Assembly (NCBI GenBank): GCA_030065975.1 | Contig: JASJCN010000010.1 | Coordinates: 1 to 63,196, forward strand | DNA length: 63,196 nt | Direction: 5' to 3' | Origin: Myxococcota bacterium | Lineage (GTDB): Bacteria > Myxococcota_A > UBA9160 > UBA6930 | In this document: positions 8,429-58,879 of the stretch, one piece after another | Numbering within the stretch: the first letter of the stretch is position 1 | Layout: the number at the start of each line of letters is the position of its first letter | Made by a program: the position numbers and the translations under genes | Notes under the pieces: generated by a model | What the model saw: the letters and a program-made list of their open reading frames with translations, nothing else | Told to the model about the DNA's origin: nothing | Database searches by the model: none

Positions 8429-11644
<3,216 letters not shown>

Positions 11645-49814: not shown

Positions 49815-51824
49815 ATGGCCGTGCGCCCGCGCTCGTTCCGCACGCGGCTGAGCCTGGTGATGCTCGCGCTGCTCTTCGTGGCGCTGGGGCTCGTGATGGG
49901 GCTCGTGCAGGACGTGACCGCACGGCGTGTGGAGAGCGAGTTCGCCGCGCGCTTCGACCGGGCGGTGGCGGCGCTGCGCCAGGTCCAGGCGCTGACCGGC
50001 GAGCTGGTGGAGCGCGAGCTGGTCTCCCTGTGCTCGGGCAACCCGCGCTTCCGCACGGTGCTCGCGACGGCGTCGCTCCCGGGGACCAACCATCCCGAAG
50101 CGCTCGAGGAAGCGAACCTGTGGGTCCGCTCGCTGCTTCCCACCCTTCCCCTGGCGGCCGAGAGCGACGTCTTCATCGTCTCCGACGCGGCCGGCGAGCT
50201 GGTCTTCACGAAGACCGACGCCCGGCGCGTCGGCGACGACCTGACCGCCCTCCCGGTGCTGCGCGAGGCCGCCGAGCGGGGCCGCGCCTCGGGCGTCTGG
50301 GTGGCGGGGACGCCGCTTCCGGCCGGCCTCTCCTCCGCGCTCTTCCCCGATGCCGTGGGCGTGGTGCAGGTCTGGGTCGAGGCGGTCGCCTACGACGGCG
50401 AGATCCAGGGCTTCGTGATCGCGGGCGAACGGCTGGACGACGCGCTGCTCGGGCGACTGCGAGAGCTCTCGGGCCTGGATCTCGCCCTGGTCGGGGGCGG
50501 GCGGCTGCACGCTTCGACGCTGGTGGTGCGGGTGCAGGACGACCTGCGGGCGCGTGCGGCCGGCACCCCCGCTGAGCGGGGCGCGGATCGTCGGGAGTGG
50601 CTCGGCGGACAGCGCTTCGTCGTGCAGTCGGCCGAGGCCGTGCCCGGAGCCGGCGAAGAGGCGGTGGCCCTGCTGGTGCTGCAGAACCTGGACGCGGAGC
50701 TCGCCTTCCTCGGCTCGTTGCGTCGCACGGCTCTCGCTCTGGGCCTGGGCGTCGGTCTGGTCGCACTGCTGGTGGCCCTGGGCGTCGCGGGCGGCGTGAC
50801 GCGTCCCGTCTCGGAGCTGGCTTCCGCTGCGCGCCGGCTGGGAGCCGGCGAGCTCTCGGCCCGCGTCCGGGTCACGACGGGCGACGAGCTCGAAGACCTG
50901 GGCGACGCCTTCAACGAGATGGCCGAGGGCCTCGAGGAGCGTGAGCGGATCCGCCGCACCTTCGAGCGCTACGTCACGCCCGGCGTCGCGCGCCAGGTGC
51001 TCGAGCGGGAGGAGAGCGGCGGGCCGGCCGCCGACCGGCGCGACATCACCGTCGTGTTCTTCGACCTGGCCGGGTACACCAGCATGGCCGAGCGGCTCGA
51101 GCCCGAGCAGACCCTCGACCGCCTGAACCAGTACTTCGAGATCGTGCACGAGGCGGTCGCAGCCGAGCAGGGGACCGTCAACCAGTTCTTCGGAGACGGG
51201 GTGCTGGCCTTCTGGGGAGCCCCCGAGGCCATGCCCGACCACGCGCTGCGCGCCTGTCGGGCCGCCTCCTCGGCGCTCGAGAGCCTGGCCGCGCGCTCGC
51301 CCGAGTGGGAGCGTCAGGGGCTGCCGCCGATCCGCTGTCGTATCGGCATCCACACCGGAGAGTGTCTGGTGGGCGAGCTCGGCGCGGCGGAGCGCCGCGC
51401 CTACGGGGCCGTCGGTGACGCCATGAATCTCGCCAGCCGGCTCGAGGGGGCGAACAAGATCTACGGGACGTGCATCCTGGCTTCGGAGACCACGGTGCAG
51501 GCGGCCGGCCCGGAGCTCTTCGTCCGAGAGCTCGACTGGCTGCGCGTCGTGGGGCGGCGCGGCCGGGTGACGCTCTACGAGGTGCTGCCCGCCCTCGACG
51601 GCGCCTCTGCCTCGCGTCGCAAGCAGGTCCACATCCTCTACGAGCGCGGGCTCTCCGCCTGGCGGGCCCGTGACTTCGCCACCGCCCGCGAGGCCTTCCA
51701 GCAGGCCGTGGCCCTCGATCCCGAGGACGGCCCCTCGCGGACCTTCCTGCGCCGCTTCGACGATCTGCCCGAGAACCGGCTGCCCGAGGACTGGTCGCCC
51801 GTGCACGAGGCCGCCGAGAAATAG
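49815..51824 (+). CDS. Membrane adenylate/guanylate cyclase with HAMP and sensor domain
   Basis: This is a 669-residue protein. A TM helix lies at 13-30, then a periplasmic sensor of about 270 residues with a dCache/sCache-like look (D-V-F-I-V-S-D-A-A-G-E-L-V). A second TM helix (about 305-330), a HAMP domain (to about 380) and a class III cyclase domain (about 400-590) follow. Metal-binding Asp residues lie in V-F-F-D-L-A-G-Y-T and F-F-G-D-G-V-L-A-F-W-G, and the transition-state pair is in N-L-A-S-R-L-E. A TPR-like tail ends the protein. Its ligand could relate to the cupredoxin encoded directly upstream. The stop codon is part of a 19-nt tandem repeat. Confidence 0.93.
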   Translation: MAVRPRSFRTRLSLVMLALLFVALGLVMGLVQDVTARRVESEFAARFDRAVAALRQVQALTGELVERELVSLCSGNPRFRTVLATASLPGTNHPEALEEANLWVRSLLPTLPLAAESDVFIVSDAAGELVFTKTDARRVGDDLTALPVLREAAERGRASGVWVAGTPLPAGLSSALFPDAVGVVQVWVEAVAYDGEIQGFVIAGERLDDALLGRLRELSGLDLALVGGGRLHASTLVVRVQDDLRARAAGTPAERGADRREWLGGQRFVVQSAEAVPGAGEEAVALLVLQNLDAELAFLGSLRRTALALGLGVGLVALLVALGVAGGVTRPVSELASAARRLGAGELSARVRVTTGDELEDLGDAFNEMAEGLEERERIRRTFERYVTPGVARQVLEREESGGPAADRRDITVVFFDLAGYTSMAERLEPEQTLDRLNQYFEIVHEAVAAEQGTVNQFFGDGVLAFWGAPEAMPDHALRACRAASSALESLAARSPEWERQGLPPIRCRIGIHTGECLVGELGAAERRAYGAVGDAMNLASRLEGANKIYGTCILASETTVQAAGPELFVRELDWLRVVGRRGRVTLYEVLPALDGASASRRKQVHILYERGLSAWRARDFATAREAFQQAVALDPEDGPSRTFLRRFDDLPENRLPEDWSPVHEAAEK

Positions 51825-51919
51825 GCAGGCCGCCGAGAAATAGGCAGGCTGCCGAGAAATAGGCAGGCCGCCGAAGAACAGGCAGGCTGCCGAGGAGTAG
51901 GCGGGCCGCCGGGAAGTAG
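51806..51919 (+). repeat. 19-nt tandem repeat duplicating a stop codon, six copies
   Basis: Six consecutive 19-nt units (type GCAGGCCGCCGAGAAATAG) begin inside the last codons of the cyclase gene and run to 51919, just before the selenoprotein start at 51951. The first unit contains the real stop TAG, and four later units repeat a TAG at the same place; one has CAG. 19 is not a multiple of three, so the copies are in different frames. Confidence 0.92.
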
Positions 51920-51950
51920 GCGTCGGCGCGGGCACGGCTATTCTAGAGCG

Positions 51951-53489
51951 ATGCGTCTCTCCTCCCGTCTCGCCGACCTCGTCCTCTCGGACGACCGGGG
52001 CGAGGACGTGCGTCTCGGCGACCTGTGGCGCGAGCGGGCCGCGGTGCTCGTCTTCGTTCGCCACTTCGGCTGACTCTTCTGCCGCGAGCAGGTCGCCCAG
52101 TTGGGCGACGCACAGGACGAGATCGAGGCCGCCGGAGGCGACCTCGTGGTGATCGGGAACGGCGCCGCGCACTTCGCGAAGGCCTTCCGAGAGGACCTCG
52201 ACTTCCGCGGGACGCTGCTGGTCGACCCCGAGCTACGCGCCTATCGCGTGGCGGGTCTGCGACGCGGTCGGGTCGAGGTCCTGTCGCCGCGGCTCGGCTG
52301 GAACGCCCTGCGAGCCCTGGGCAAGGGACACCGGCAGGGCGCGATCGAGGGCGACCCGTGGCAGCTCGGGGGGGCCCTGGTGATCCGGCCGGGCGGCGAC
52401 CTCGCCTTCCGGCACGTGAGCACCGTGGCCGGGGATCACGCCGACCCCGAGGAGCTGATCGCCGCACTCGAGCCCGGCCTCGTGCCGTTGCCGGAGGGGG
52501 AGGGCGGGAGCGCTCTCGCCAGCGTGGCCCGGCCCCTCGGTCGCCTGGTCGATCCCCTGGTCCCGCTGTCCTTCTCGCGGCCCGGCTACGCGATCCGCGC
52601 GGCAGGCTTCGACCCCGACGATCTCGTCGTCGACCTGGGGGAGCAGCGCTGGCTCGTGACCGGCGCGAACTCCGGGATCGGCTTCGAGACGGCTCTGGCC
52701 CTCGCCGACCTCGGTGCCGAGGTCGAGCTCCTGTGCCGCAACCCCGAGCGCGGCGCCGAGGCCGCCGAGCGGATCGCGGACTCCACGGGAAACCGCCGGG
52801 TCCGGGCCCACGTGCTCGACGTCTCGAGCCTCGCCGACGTGGCCCAGGTCGCCGAGCAGCTGATCGATCGACCCGTCGACGGGATCGTCCACAACGCCGG
52901 GGTGCTTCCCGACGATCTGATCGAGAGTGCGGACGGCCTCGAGCTGACCTGGGCGACCCACGTAGCGGGCCCCCATCTGCTGACGCGGCTGCTGCGCCCC
53001 GCGCTCGAGGCGGCGCCGGCCGCGCGCGTGATCTTCGTCTCTTCCGGCGGGATGTACACCCGCGGCCTCGAGACCCGCGACCCCGACTGGCAGCGACGCC
53101 GCTACGACGGCGTGCTGGCCTACGCCGAGACCAAGCGCGCCCAGGTGGTGCTCGCGGAGCTCTGGGCGGAGGCGTTCGCCGAGACCGGGGTCACGTGCAA
53201 CTCCATGCATCCGGGCTGGGCGGAGACCCCGAGCGTCGAGAGCTCGCTGCCCCGCTTCCATCGCGTGACGAAGCCCTTCCTGCGGACACCGGCGGAAGGC
53301 GCCGACACGGTGGTGTGGCTCGCGGCAAGCCCGGCGGCGGCCGGGGAGACCGGCCGCTTCTTCTTCGACCGCCGGGCGGTCGGGACCCACTGGCTGCTCG
53401 GCACCCGCGAGAGCGCGAGCGAGCGGGCCTGGCTCTGGGAGCGCTGCGAGAAGCTCGCCGCGCCTTTCGTGGTGGTCCCCTCGGACTGA
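51951..53489 (+). CDS. Selenocysteine peroxiredoxin-like/SDR fusion protein
   Basis: This is a 512-residue protein read through TGA at 52071-52073 (codon 41). The N-terminal half (1-180) is an AhpC/TSA_2 (PRXL2/AAED1-like) thioredoxin fold. Its active site reads V-R-H-F-G-U-L-F-C-R-E, a UxxC motif in place of CxxC. The C-terminal half (about 230-512) is a short-chain dehydrogenase with T-G-A-N-S-G-I-G (237-244), H-N-A-G-V, the Ser in F-V-S-S-G-G and Y-A-E-T-K. A SECIS-like hairpin follows the TGA. The fusion suggests that NAD(P)H-linked reduction is coupled to selenol redox chemistry. A conventional gene call would begin at 52101 and miss the active site. Confidence 0.88.
52092..52109 (+). 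promoter_or_regulatory. SECIS-like hairpin for the PRX-like/SDR gene
   Basis: GTCGCCC pairs with GGGCGAC around loop AGTT. The stem starts 18 nt after the TGA, and G is the second loop base. The geometry fits a bacterial SECIS element. Confidence 0.75.
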
Positions 53490-55176: not shown

Positions 55177-58100
55177 TTGCCCGGCTTCCCGACCCTCCCG
55201 GTGCGCGCCCTGTTCTTCGCGCTGCTGATCTCGGCCTCTGCCCAGGCCCAGACGCCCTCGTTCATCACGTTCGAGACGGGGCCCGTCCGCCCCATCGGCG
55301 TCTCCGAGGACGGCAATCGCGTCTTCGTCGTGAACACGCCCGACGCCCGACTCGAGGTGTTCGCCGCCGATGCCGTGGGGCTGACCCACACCGCCTCGAT
55401 CCCCGTCGGCCTCGAGCCCGACGCGCTCGCGGTGCGCGGAAACGACGAAGTGTGGGTCGTGAACCACCTGTCGGACTCGGTGAGCATCGTCGACGTGACC
55501 CTGGGCCGGGTGAAGAAGACCCTGCTCGTGGGCGACGAGCCCCGCGACATCGTCTTCGCGAACGACCGCGCCTTCATCACCACCGCCCACCGCGGACAGC
55601 ACCGCACCGACGCCTCGGTCGCCGGGGTCCCCGGTGTCGGCGATCCGCAGCTCACGACGCCCGGCGTCGGTCGCGCCGACGTCTGGGTCTTCGACGCGGA
55701 CGCGCCCGGCGACTCCCTGGGCGGCGATCCCGTAGCGGTCCTGACCCTCTTCGCCGACACACCCCGAGCCCTGGCCGTGAGCCCCGACGGCGGAACCGTC
55801 TACGCCGCGGCCTTCCACAGCGGCAACCAGACGACCGTGATCTCCGAGGGGCTCGTCTGCAACGGCTTCGACCCCGCGACCCCCTGCCAGATCGGGCCGA
55901 CCCCGGTGCCCGGCGGCAACCCCGGCCCGGCGACCAACCACGAGGGCGTCCCCGCTCCCGAGGTCGGCATCATCGTCCGGCTGAACCCCGCCACCGGCAA
56001 GTGGGAGGACGAGCTCGGCCGCGACTGGAGCGCCGCCGTTCGCTTCGACCTCCCGGACAAGGACGTCTTCGCCATCGATGCGGAGACCCTGCAGACCACC
56101 GAGGAGATCTCCGGCGTCGGCACCATCCTCTTCAACATGGTGGCCAACCCGCGCACCGGCGCGATCTACGTGTCCAACACCGAGGCGCGCAACGAGGTGC
56201 GCTTCGAGGGCCCGGGCGAGTTCTTCGACTCGACGGTCCAGGGCCGCCTGCACGAGTCGCGCATCACGGTGATCAAGGACGGCCAGGTCCTGCCCCGGCA
56301 TCTGAACAAGCACATCGACTACGACGTGCGCCCGGCGCCCCCGGGCACGAAGGACCACAGCCTCGCCACGCCCCTCGACATGGTGATCGACAAGGGCGGA
56401 CGCTTCCTCTACGTGGCCGCGTTCGGCTCGTCCAAGATCGGCGTCTACCGCACCAGCCGCCTCGAGAACGACAGCTTCGATCCCGAGACGGCCAGCGCCC
56501 GGCACATCGACGTCTCCGGTGGCGGCCCGAGCGGCCTGGTGATCGACGATGCCCGCCGGCGCCTCTACGTGGCGACGCGCTTCGACAACGGCGTCTCCGT
56601 GGTGGACCTGCGCAGCCTGCGCGAGGTCGACCACGTGTCCCTCCACAACCCGGAGCCCGACTCCGTGGTCGCGGGCCGCCCCGTCCTCTACGACGCCTTC
56701 AACACCTCGAGCAACGGCGAGGCCTCGTGCTCCTCGTGCCACGTGTTCGGCGACCTCGACTCCCTGGCCTGGGATCTCGGCGACCCGGACGGCGGCGTGG
56801 GCCGGAACCCGATGGTCGTGAACCTGGACACCGCCGTCTTCCTGGCCCGCGATCTCTTCGACGCCGACTTCTTCAGCGGGCTGAACGGCGAGGGCAACCT
56901 CGACGACTTCAGCCCGATGAAGGGGCCGATGACGACCCAGACCTTCCGCGGAATGGTCAACTCGGGCCACATGCACTGGCGGGGCGACCGCGCCGACGGC
57001 TTCTTCGGCTTCGACGCCGGCAACACCAACGACTCGGAGCTCTCCTTCAAGAACTTCATCGTGGCGTTCCCGGGCCTGCTCGGCTCCGAGCGCAGCGTGA
57101 ACGATGCGGATCTGCAGCAGGACATGCAGGCATTCACGGACTTCACCCTCCAGATCGCCCTGCCGCCGAACCCGATCCGGAACCTCGACAACTCCGACAC
57201 GCCGGCCCAGGCCCGCGGACGCGACTTCTTCTTCGGCGGCCCGGACGGCACCCAGCTCTCGGACGGCCTCCCGCTGATCCCCGGGGCCACGGGCTTCACC
57301 TGCAACGGCTGCCACGACCTCGATCCGTCGAAGGGCTTCTTCGGGACGGGTGGCGACTCGAGCTTCGAGTTCGAGGAGCAGACCATGAAGGTCCCGCACA
57401 TGCGCAACCTCTATCAGAAGGTCGGCATGTTCGGGATGGCGCCCGTGCCCAACTTCTTCCTCTTCGGTGACAACGGCCACCAGGGCGACCAGATCCGCGG
57501 CTTCGGCTTCCTGCACGACGGCAGCTCGGACACCCTGTTCCGCTTCTTCCGCTCGATCGTGTTCGATCCGGACACCTTCAGCATCCCGGAGTTCGGCATC
57601 GTGGGTGGCGGCTTCACCGGCGGCAACCCGCAGCGGCGCGACATGGAGGCCTTCGCCCTGGCGTTCCCCTCGGATCTGGCACCCATCGTGGGCCAGCAGG
57701 TCACCCTGACCGCGACCTCCGGGGCCGACGTCGACGCCCGCGTCCAGCTCCTGATGGAGCGCGCCGAGGCGCCCTTCACCTCGAAGTTCCTGGGCGGGGA
57801 CGTGACCGAGTGCGACCTGATCGCCAAGACCAGCCTCCTCGGCGCCCCGCGCGGCTACTTCTATACCGGGGCCGGCACGTTCCTGGCCGACGACGGCAGC
57901 ACGCTCTCCGACGCGGAGCTGCGCGCGATCGCCGACACCAACGACGTGACCTACACCTGCATGCCGCCCGGATCGGGCATGCGCGCCGGGGTGGACCGGG
58001 ACGAGGACGACGTGCTCGACGGCCTCGACAACTGCCCGGCCGTGGCCAACGCCGGCCAGGCCGACGGCGACGTCGACGGCCTGGGCGACGCGTGCGATGA

Positions 58101-58221
58101 CGCCAACGCCCTCGTGCTCGTGGCCAGCAGCGGCACGGGCGCTTGCGGTCTGGGCTTCGAGGCCGTGCTTCCGCTGGCCGCAGCCTTCTGGATGCGCCGC
58201 CGCCGGACGCTTCGCGCCTAA
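55177..58221 (+). CDS. Secreted di-haem beta-propeller protein with C-terminal sorting tail
   Basis: This is a 1014-residue protein from TTG with AAGGAG 7 nt upstream. It has a signal peptide (A-L-F-F-A-L-L-I-S-A-S-A-Q-A). Residues about 30-480 are YVTN/NHL-like beta-propeller repeats (V-S-P-D-G-G-T-V-Y and similar). Two haem-binding motifs follow, C-S-S-C-H (about 515) and C-N-G-C-H (about 710), in a cytochrome-c-peroxidase/MauG-like context. Near the end is a calcium-binding thrombospondin-3-like loop (D-R-D-E-D-D-V-L-D-G-L-D-N-C). The tail G-A-C-G-L-G-F-E, hydrophobic helix and R-R-R-R resembles Myxococcales GC-TM-RRR or MYXO-CTERM sorting signals. It is likely surface-exposed and redox-active. 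Confidence 0.9.
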   Translation: MPGFPTLPVRALFFALLISASAQAQTPSFITFETGPVRPIGVSEDGNRVFVVNTPDARLEVFAADAVGLTHTASIPVGLEPDALAVRGNDEVWVVNHLSDSVSIVDVTLGRVKKTLLVGDEPRDIVFANDRAFITTAHRGQHRTDASVAGVPGVGDPQLTTPGVGRADVWVFDADAPGDSLGGDPVAVLTLFADTPRALAVSPDGGTVYAAAFHSGNQTTVISEGLVCNGFDPATPCQIGPTPVPGGNPGPATNHEGVPAPEVGIIVRLNPATGKWEDELGRDWSAAVRFDLPDKDVFAIDAETLQTTEEISGVGTILFNMVANPRTGAIYVSNTEARNEVRFEGPGEFFDSTVQGRLHESRITVIKDGQVLPRHLNKHIDYDVRPAPPGTKDHSLATPLDMVIDKGGRFLYVAAFGSSKIGVYRTSRLENDSFDPETASARHIDVSGGGPSGLVIDDARRRLYVATRFDNGVSVVDLRSLREVDHVSLHNPEPDSVVAGRPVLYDAFNTSSNGEASCSSCHVFGDLDSLAWDLGDPDGGVGRNPMVVNLDTAVFLARDLFDADFFSGLNGEGNLDDFSPMKGPMTTQTFRGMVNSGHMHWRGDRADGFFGFDAGNTNDSELSFKNFIVAFPGLLGSERSVNDADLQQDMQAFTDFTLQIALPPNPIRNLDNSDTPAQARGRDFFFGGPDGTQLSDGLPLIPGATGFTCNGCHDLDPSKGFFGTGGDSSFEFEEQTMKVPHMRNLYQKVGMFGMAPVPNFFLFGDNGHQGDQIRGFGFLHDGSSDTLFRFFRSIVFDPDTFSIPEFGIVGGGFTGGNPQRRDMEAFALAFPSDLAPIVGQQVTLTATSGADVDARVQLLMERAEAPFTSKFLGGDVTECDLIAKTSLLGAPRGYFYTGAGTFLADDGSTLSDAELRAIADTNDVTYTCMPPGSGMRAGVDRDEDDVLDGLDNCPAVANAGQADGDVDGLGDACDDANALVLVASSGTGACGLGFEAVLPLAAAFWMRRRRTLRA

Positions 58222-58294: not shown

Positions 58295-58879
58295 CTACTC
58301 GCTCGGCGGGGGCGGAGCCGCGGAGCCGGCTCGCGGGAACGCCAGCTCGTCGAGCTTGTCGGCGATGTCCTGGCCCGCCGTCGAGACGTCGACGGCCTTG
58401 TCCACGTGGCGGACGATGCCGTCGGAGTCGACGTAGAAGGTCCATCGCTTCGCGAAGAAGCCGCCGAATCCCGCGACGCCGTAGGCCTTGGCGGCCTCGG
58501 CCTCGGGGTCGGAGAGGAGCACGTGCTTGGCTTCCAGGGACTCGGCGAAGTCGCGGTTCTTTTCGACGTCGTCGAGGCTCACCATGTAGACGGCGACGTC
58601 GAAGGCCTGAAGGGCTTCGGCGCTGTCACGCAGCGCCTCGAGCTCCTGCGTTCAGCCAGGCGTGAAGGCCTTGGGGAACCAGGCCAGCACCACGCCCCGC
58701 TTGCCCAGGTGGTCGGAGAGGGCGTGGGTGCGGCCGTCCGAGCCGGCCAGTGAGAAGGCGGGCGCCTTGTCGCCCACCTCGGGCGCTGCCTGCGCGCCGA
58801 GGGGCACGGCGAGGAGCAGCGCGGCCAGGGATCCGCCCAGGAATCCGGCCAGGGCCGGCAAGCGTCGTGTGCGCGTCAT
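58295..58879 (-). CDS. Periplasmic selenocysteine peroxiredoxin (Bcp-like)
   Basis: This is a 194-residue protein read through TGA at 58654-58652 (codon 76). The N-terminus is a signal peptide (A-L-L-L-A-V-P-L-G-A-Q-A). Then come V-G-D-K-A-P-A-F-S-L and the active site F-P-K-A-F-T-P-G-U-T-Q-E-L. Ordinary peroxiredoxins have P-G-C-T here, so Sec replaces the peroxidatic cysteine. The rest (V-Y-M-V-S-L-D, L-L-S-D-P, F-Y-V-D-S-D-G-I-V-R) is standard Prx fold. No resolving cysteine is visible, so it is probably a 1-Sec enzyme using an outside reductant. A SECIS-like hairpin follows the TGA. It lies 31 nt after the acyltransferase gene. Confidence 0.9.
58619..58637 (-). promoter_or_regulatory. SECIS-like hairpin for the peroxiredoxin gene
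   Basis: On the minus strand, GGCGCTG pairs with CAGCGCC around loop CGTGA. The stem starts 14 nt after the TGA, and G is the second loop base, as in bacterial SECIS elements. Confidence 0.75.

Follow-up and report, generated by a model that had tools for sequence, protein, structure and literature searches.

We analyzed a 63,196-nt stretch of a Myxococcota bacterium genome (GTDB lineage Bacteria; Myxococcota_A; UBA9160; UBA6930; assembly GCA_030065975.1, contig JASJCN010000010.1, positions 1 to 63,196 of the forward strand), hereafter the window. One of its genes opens with an ATG and forms a single coding frame whose sole interruption is a TGA at codon 41 (Table 1). Read through this codon, the gene yields a product in which residue 41 is selenocysteine (Sec), set in the sequence RHFG-U-LFC-REQ. 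The preliminary description of this locus had followed the same frame, with its lone TGA, into a complete short-chain dehydrogenase/reductase (SDR), and rereading the sequence confirmed it.

Table 1. Features of the fusion gene, in window coordinates.
Feature	Position	Strand	Details
Whole selenoprotein gene	51951..53489	+	512 aa, U41, terminal TGA; full length kept in 29 genomes
SelL-related (PRXL2/AhpC-TSA_2) redox domain	51951..52505	+	Residues 1-185; NF040769, PF13911 and 9us9 matches
TGA codon read as selenocysteine (U41)	52071..52073	+	TGA here in all fusion homologues
Resolving cysteine C44 of U-x-x-C	52080..52082	+	Invariant in 23 aligned fusions
Bacterial SECIS hairpin	52092..52109	+	7-bp stem, AGUU apical loop; covariation, synonymous-codon shuffle, TTG loop codon
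Linker and SDR N-terminal extension (DP...SFxRxGF...FDPxDL)	52503..52640	+	Residues 185-230; conserved columns; found in unfused SDR homologues too
Short-chain dehydrogenase/reductase domain	52641..53489	+	Residues 231-512; PF00106, PDB SDRs by sequence and fold
Nucleotide-binding motif TGANSGIG	52659..52682	+	Residues 237-244
Catalytic Y-x-x-x-K (YAETK)	53121..53135	+	Residues 391-395; Y in 22/23 and K in 23/23 fusions

The N-terminal part of the product matched the profile of the SelL-related redox proteins, NF040769, with 128.7 bits (cut-off 120; residues 9-172 against profile positions 5-172 of 173), as well as PF13911 (AhpC-TSA_2/PRXL2) with 52.1 bits (cut-off 27). The C-terminal part matched the SDR profile PF00106 with 83 bits over about residues 231-470, and an AlphaFold2 model of the fusion consists of two domains, confidently predicted (pLDDT 87.5, pTM 0.83). 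The two N-terminal matches bear out the PRX-like (AhpC/TSA_2) domain with Sec at the first CxxC-type position that had been proposed from the sequence alone. The joining of that domain to an SDR also stood; the domain itself is not new, as it belongs to the described SelL-related family. By sequence comparison, the gene is that of a two-domain selenoprotein whose translation passes from a SelL-related thioredoxin-fold domain on to an SDR.

We then compared the protein with known families. Its N-terminal 172 residues resemble NF040769 members in the profile match, in the sequence RHFGU-x-FCREQ with U-x-x-C, and in the AGUU hairpin described below, and U41 and C44 occupy the motif of that family, in which Sec or Cys comes first and Cys second. 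NF040769 proteins, however, are described as a single domain of ~175 residues, whereas here an SDR is attached. Selenoprotein L (SelL) of fish, invertebrates and marine bacteria, whose motif is UxxU, has a Prx-like fold related to that of the Sec domain and likewise carries Sec first in its redox motif, but it has no SDR fusion. Nor does the fusion belong to Selenoprotein L sensu stricto, which is defined by two Sec, since its motif is UxxC; SelL carries a diselenide (PMC2397514), in contrast to the U-x-x-C found here. Among solved structures, the Sec domain comes closest to prostamide/prostaglandin F synthase (PRXL2B, 9us9), which aligned with an E value of 3.7e-15 over residues 16-172 and placed U41/C44 on its C-x-x-C (CVVC). 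Unlike the fusion, this protein is eukaryotic, has a single domain and carries Cys in the solved structure. SelU is another name for PRXL2, and the hallmark of the PRXL2/SelU family, to which prostaglandin F synthase belongs, is endoperoxide reductase activity with NADPH. In fish, SelU carries Sec (PMC2397514). Previously known selenoprotein fusions (Prx-PP2C, the Prx-like 2 and 3 fusions, and Ndh-SelD) similarly join a thioredoxin-fold selenoprotein to a second domain, but in a marine survey this second domain was never an SDR (PMC2398784). Neither an SDR selenoprotein nor an SDR fusion figures among the 119 prokaryotic selenoprotein families of a 2026 catalogue (PMC13188914), and we found no published SDR selenoprotein in the open-access literature. 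The Sec domain thus belongs to a known family, and its attachment to an SDR seems to be new.

The two-domain frame recurs in 29 genomes of the window's class, and a 30th (G040) carries it split between two contigs. In all 29 intact fusions the aligned codon is exactly TGA (one of them, L057, was scored by eye), and no Cys version of the fusion occurs among these 29 genes. The preliminary description had named a stop other than TGA, or random codons, at codon 41 of close relatives as evidence against Sec; none was found. An independent scan of 84,980 species, using peptide patterns that leave out the Sec position, returned 27 fusion loci, some of them in genomes already among the 29, and all have TGA. 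Among the standalone relatives, two (L144 and L146) have TGC, and all others with a readable motif have TGA. The sequence upstream of this codon also behaves as a gene: across 16 genes, the 40 codons before the TGA differ 1381, 1242 and 2309 times at codon positions 1, 2 and 3, respectively, compared with a flat 2262, 2226 and 2187 in the region 5' of the ATG. These 40 codons therefore evolve as coding sequence.

Downstream of the TGA, the preliminary description had pointed out a perfect 7-bp hairpin with an AGTT loop. We found it as described, beginning 18 nt 3' of the TGA (GUCGCCC-AGUU-GGGCGAC), with a stem that is kept comparatively. Bacterial SECIS elements have a loop 16-37 nt from the UGA and a G within the first two loop bases; the hairpin agrees with both, its AGUU loop starting at +25 nt. 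The same distance holds in nearly all of 66 aligned sequences, and standalone SelL-related members bear the same AGUU hairpin. In this alignment, 95.5% of the pair cells are standard, and five of the seven pairs change on both sides, with 34 such cells observed against 6.8 expected from shuffles. None of 500 shuffles came up to the observed cell counts or covariation score, a figure that is not a probability because the 66 sequences are related, and slid controls failed. The window's own hairpin illustrates such a change: the usual R of LRD is G here, and the partner base changed with it (GCG/CGC to GCC/GGC), so that the pair is kept. Codon usage points in the same direction. All 28 fusion genes tested use TTG for the Leu that closes the loop, while TTG makes up only 8% of their Leu codons, and the 7-bp stem is kept in 27 of the 28, compared with a median of ~8% per gene after synonymous-codon shuffling; in the fusion L093, an internal mismatch interrupts the stem. 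Taken alone, the window's 60-nt RNA does not fold with unusual stability (z = -0.71, single sequence). As this z-score is not significant, single-sequence folding was set aside as proof of the hairpin in favour of the covariation and synonymous-codon tests, and the evidence for the hairpin is comparative.

The window's genome encodes a tRNA-Sec with anticodon UCA. Its assembly, which is 85.5% complete, yielded neither SelA nor SelB. Across the order, 75 of 80 genomes encode SelA, the window's genome being the only one that bears the fusion and lacks SelA; SelB scored above the cut-off in 63 of the 80 and is absent also from several fragmented fusion-bearing assemblies. SelB was considered as a neighbor of SelA, but the large neighboring gene in a relative (L150) encodes RNase G, and the absence of both genes is thus not readily put down to a single small gap. 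The window's genome also encodes a pyridine-nucleotide oxidoreductase fused to a SelD-like domain (L004, on contig C16 of G000). It scored above the selD cut-off, but it also matches, below that model's own cut-off, TIGR04369, whose name marks it as not SelD.

These results allowed us to weigh the reading in which the TGA is a true stop, whether through sequencing error, in a pseudogene or between two proteins, and translation of the SDR begins internally. A TTG at 52101 would indeed open a 462-aa frame, and the SDR is found alone in a few relatives, but starting there would halve the thioredoxin fold. Moreover, the 29 fusions never show another stop or a sense codon at this position, the 40 codons 5' of it are under purifying selection, a covarying hairpin lies 3' of it, and the genome has tRNA-Sec. 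Conservation of the TGA, the coding signal before it and the hairpin covariation dispose of sequencing error, pseudogene and internal start alike; the true-stop reading is already contradicted by the comparative data, and we consider it extremely improbable. A reassigned TGA code is not supported either, given that most fusion genes end with TGA and that tRNA-Sec is encoded. On the comparative evidence, then, UGA codon 41 is decoded as selenocysteine, aided by the hairpin 25 nt 3' of it, and we regard Sec at this codon and the fusion, taken together, as close to certain.

The SDR half resembles classical SDRs in its Rossmann motif (TGANSGIG, of the form TGxxxGIG), its YxxxK, its fold and its S-Y-K active site, all three residues of which are kept. 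It departs from them in carrying the N-terminal Sec domain and in having His337 at the position of the tetrad Asn, a substitution that is invariant in 23 of 23 aligned fusions. SDRs in the PDB match this half by both sequence and fold (3rd5, protochlorophyllide reductases), with NADPH-binding SDRs among the fold matches, and we take it to be DHRS12-like. In SDRs generally, an Arg after strand beta-2 favours NADPH; Arg263 lies at this place and is invariant in the aligned fusions, and the SDR half is probably NADPH-dependent.

With E 1e-60 as the threshold, 33 genomes of the class gave homologues of the SDR half, a count that takes in fusions, contig-cut pieces and a partial match in G062. The preliminary description had proposed examining such homologues for an upstream PRX-like domain, and nearly all of those in the class have one, with U at the aligned position. 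The complete unfused homologues number three, in G011 (of the window's genus), G009 and G088; the G011 protein has the same His at the tetrad position and the G009 protein has Asn. An SRPBCC gene lies immediately 5' of the unfused SDR gene in G011. On contig C12 of that genome, a Cys form of a PRXL2-like protein (L037) and the unfused SDR (L042) lie ~6 kb apart. Phage records gave just generic SDR matches among the matches listed. A single origin of the fusion was considered, but in the SelL-domain tree inner support is weak and some standalone and truncated sequences mix with the fusions.

Our main reading joins Sec decoding and the two-domain fusion to a function on lipid peroxides and carbonyls and a role in oxidative defense, and we assign it, as one explanation, a probability of roughly 0.75. 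Sec41 would attack the O-O bond of a lipid hydroperoxide or endoperoxide, much as the first Cys of prostaglandin F synthase is thought to do. Cys44 would resolve the resulting intermediate to a selenenylsulfide, which a thiol system would then reduce, and the SDR half, probably with NADPH, would reduce a carbonyl arising from the same damaged lipid. The enzyme would in this way serve in defense against (photo-)oxidative lipid damage.

The two halves might instead share no substrate, the Sec domain being a general thiol-disulfide oxidoreductase or a chaperone-like redox switch controlling the activity or the location of the SDR. U-x-x-C is typical of thiol-disulfide oxidoreductases too, and standalone SelL-related proteins are widespread without a demonstrated SDR partner; the closest solved relative, however, is an endoperoxide reductase and not a thioredoxin, and the fusion is kept in many genera of the class. 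We therefore find this arrangement doubtful, though worth keeping in mind.

The preliminary description had proposed a self-contained enzyme linking NAD(P)H to selenol chemistry. Such an enzyme would be an NADPH-selenol reductase whose SDR passes electrons, directly or via a bound carrier, to the Sec-Cys selenenylsulfide. In about 30 genomes a Sec domain is strictly tied, in one chain, to a predicted NADPH domain, which would fit this reading, as would the confidently predicted relative placement of the domains (pTM 0.83), and the invariant His in place of the tetrad Asn suggests that the SDR chemistry may be unusual. Yet SDRs move hydride to a carbonyl or C=C and have no flavin or dithiol relay, no extra conserved Cys pair was seen in the SDR half, and G011, G009 and G088 encode the same SDR without a Sec domain, in G011 even with the same His. 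We know of no non-flavin SDR that reduces an Se-S bond. A self-contained reductase is thus unlikely, and it is safer to regard the protein as a bifunctional enzyme whose activities work in sequence or in parallel. A long shot is a flavin-free, one-chain, NADPH-driven selenoperoxidase, in which the Asn-to-His SDR would regenerate the selenol during reduction of membrane lipid (endo)peroxides without thioredoxin or glutathione.

We also examined the 12-kb surroundings of 27 fusion loci against 58 comparison loci, which were standalone SelL genes and SelA loci and not random samples. Genes for photolyase (6 vs 1, Fisher p 0.004), SRPBCC (4 vs 0, p 0.009), NmrA/YbjT-type SDR (4 vs 0, p 0.009), lipocalin (3 vs 0, p 0.03), CFA synthase (4 vs 2, p 0.08) and flavin amine oxidase (3 vs 2) were counted, and the p-values are only a guide because the seed families were picked after viewing the fusion loci and the comparison loci were not drawn at random. 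Genes for photolyase, cyclopropane-fatty-acid synthase, lipocalin or SRPBCC occur close to roughly half of the fusion loci; the window's own copy adjoins neither photolyase nor CFA genes. A strict operon partner was sought, but none is common to all fusion loci, and the neighborhood is merely enriched. In L081, L084, L090 and L091, a conserved TPR-like lipoprotein gene lies directly 3' of the fusion; except in L081, a photolyase gene comes next.

In other bacteria, PhrB, CFA synthase, an SDR and a flavin amine oxidase make up the core of the RpoE-ChrR singlet-oxygen regulon (PMC5507510), and a similar gene set adjoins light-responsive LitR genes in pseudomonads (PMC9758184). Membership in such a singlet-oxygen or light-induced (ChrR, LitR) regulon would show itself as co-regulation with phrB, cfa and related genes, which at the fusion loci are seen as neighbors. 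From this neighborhood we tentatively suggest that the fusion may act in the repair or detoxification of photo-oxidised lipids, a proposal whose odds we put somewhat below even and of which the window's own surroundings give no sign.

The fusion adds the SDR to the partners of thioredoxin-fold selenoproteins, and it points to a likely pathway for a widespread but functionally obscure selenoprotein family. Its hosts are uncultured Myxococcota, little-known bacteria of soil and water, with Sec machinery in almost every genome examined. Should the SDR turn over what the Sec domain produces, lipid peroxides and their derived carbonyls would become a substrate class open to direct test. Gene callers that read TGA as a stop would cut such genes after 40 residues or start them late, hiding the fusion.

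Several further features were observed in the window and its relatives. A second selenoprotein gene of the window (58295-58879, reverse strand, TGA at 58652-58654) encodes an exported peroxiredoxin with P-x-x-x-T-x-x-U in the sequence FPKAFTPGUTQELEALRDS, a motif known from Sec peroxiredoxins (PMC13188914). Near both selenoprotein genes, positions 55177-58221 encode a 1014-aa protein with a beta-propeller-like N-terminal part and several C-x-x-C-H haem sites. Another standalone Sec form of the SelL-related family (L041 and L043) reads RHFGUPICRQH, again with U-x-x-C, in a different flanking sequence. At 11469-11560, ARAGORN called a tRNA-Asp with anticodon ATC, which is unusual for Asp and possibly a false call. 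Finally, a ~23-nt repeat (gccgagaaataggcaggc...) occurs in roughly four to five imperfect copies at 51815-51920, between the adenylate cyclase gene and the fusion gene.
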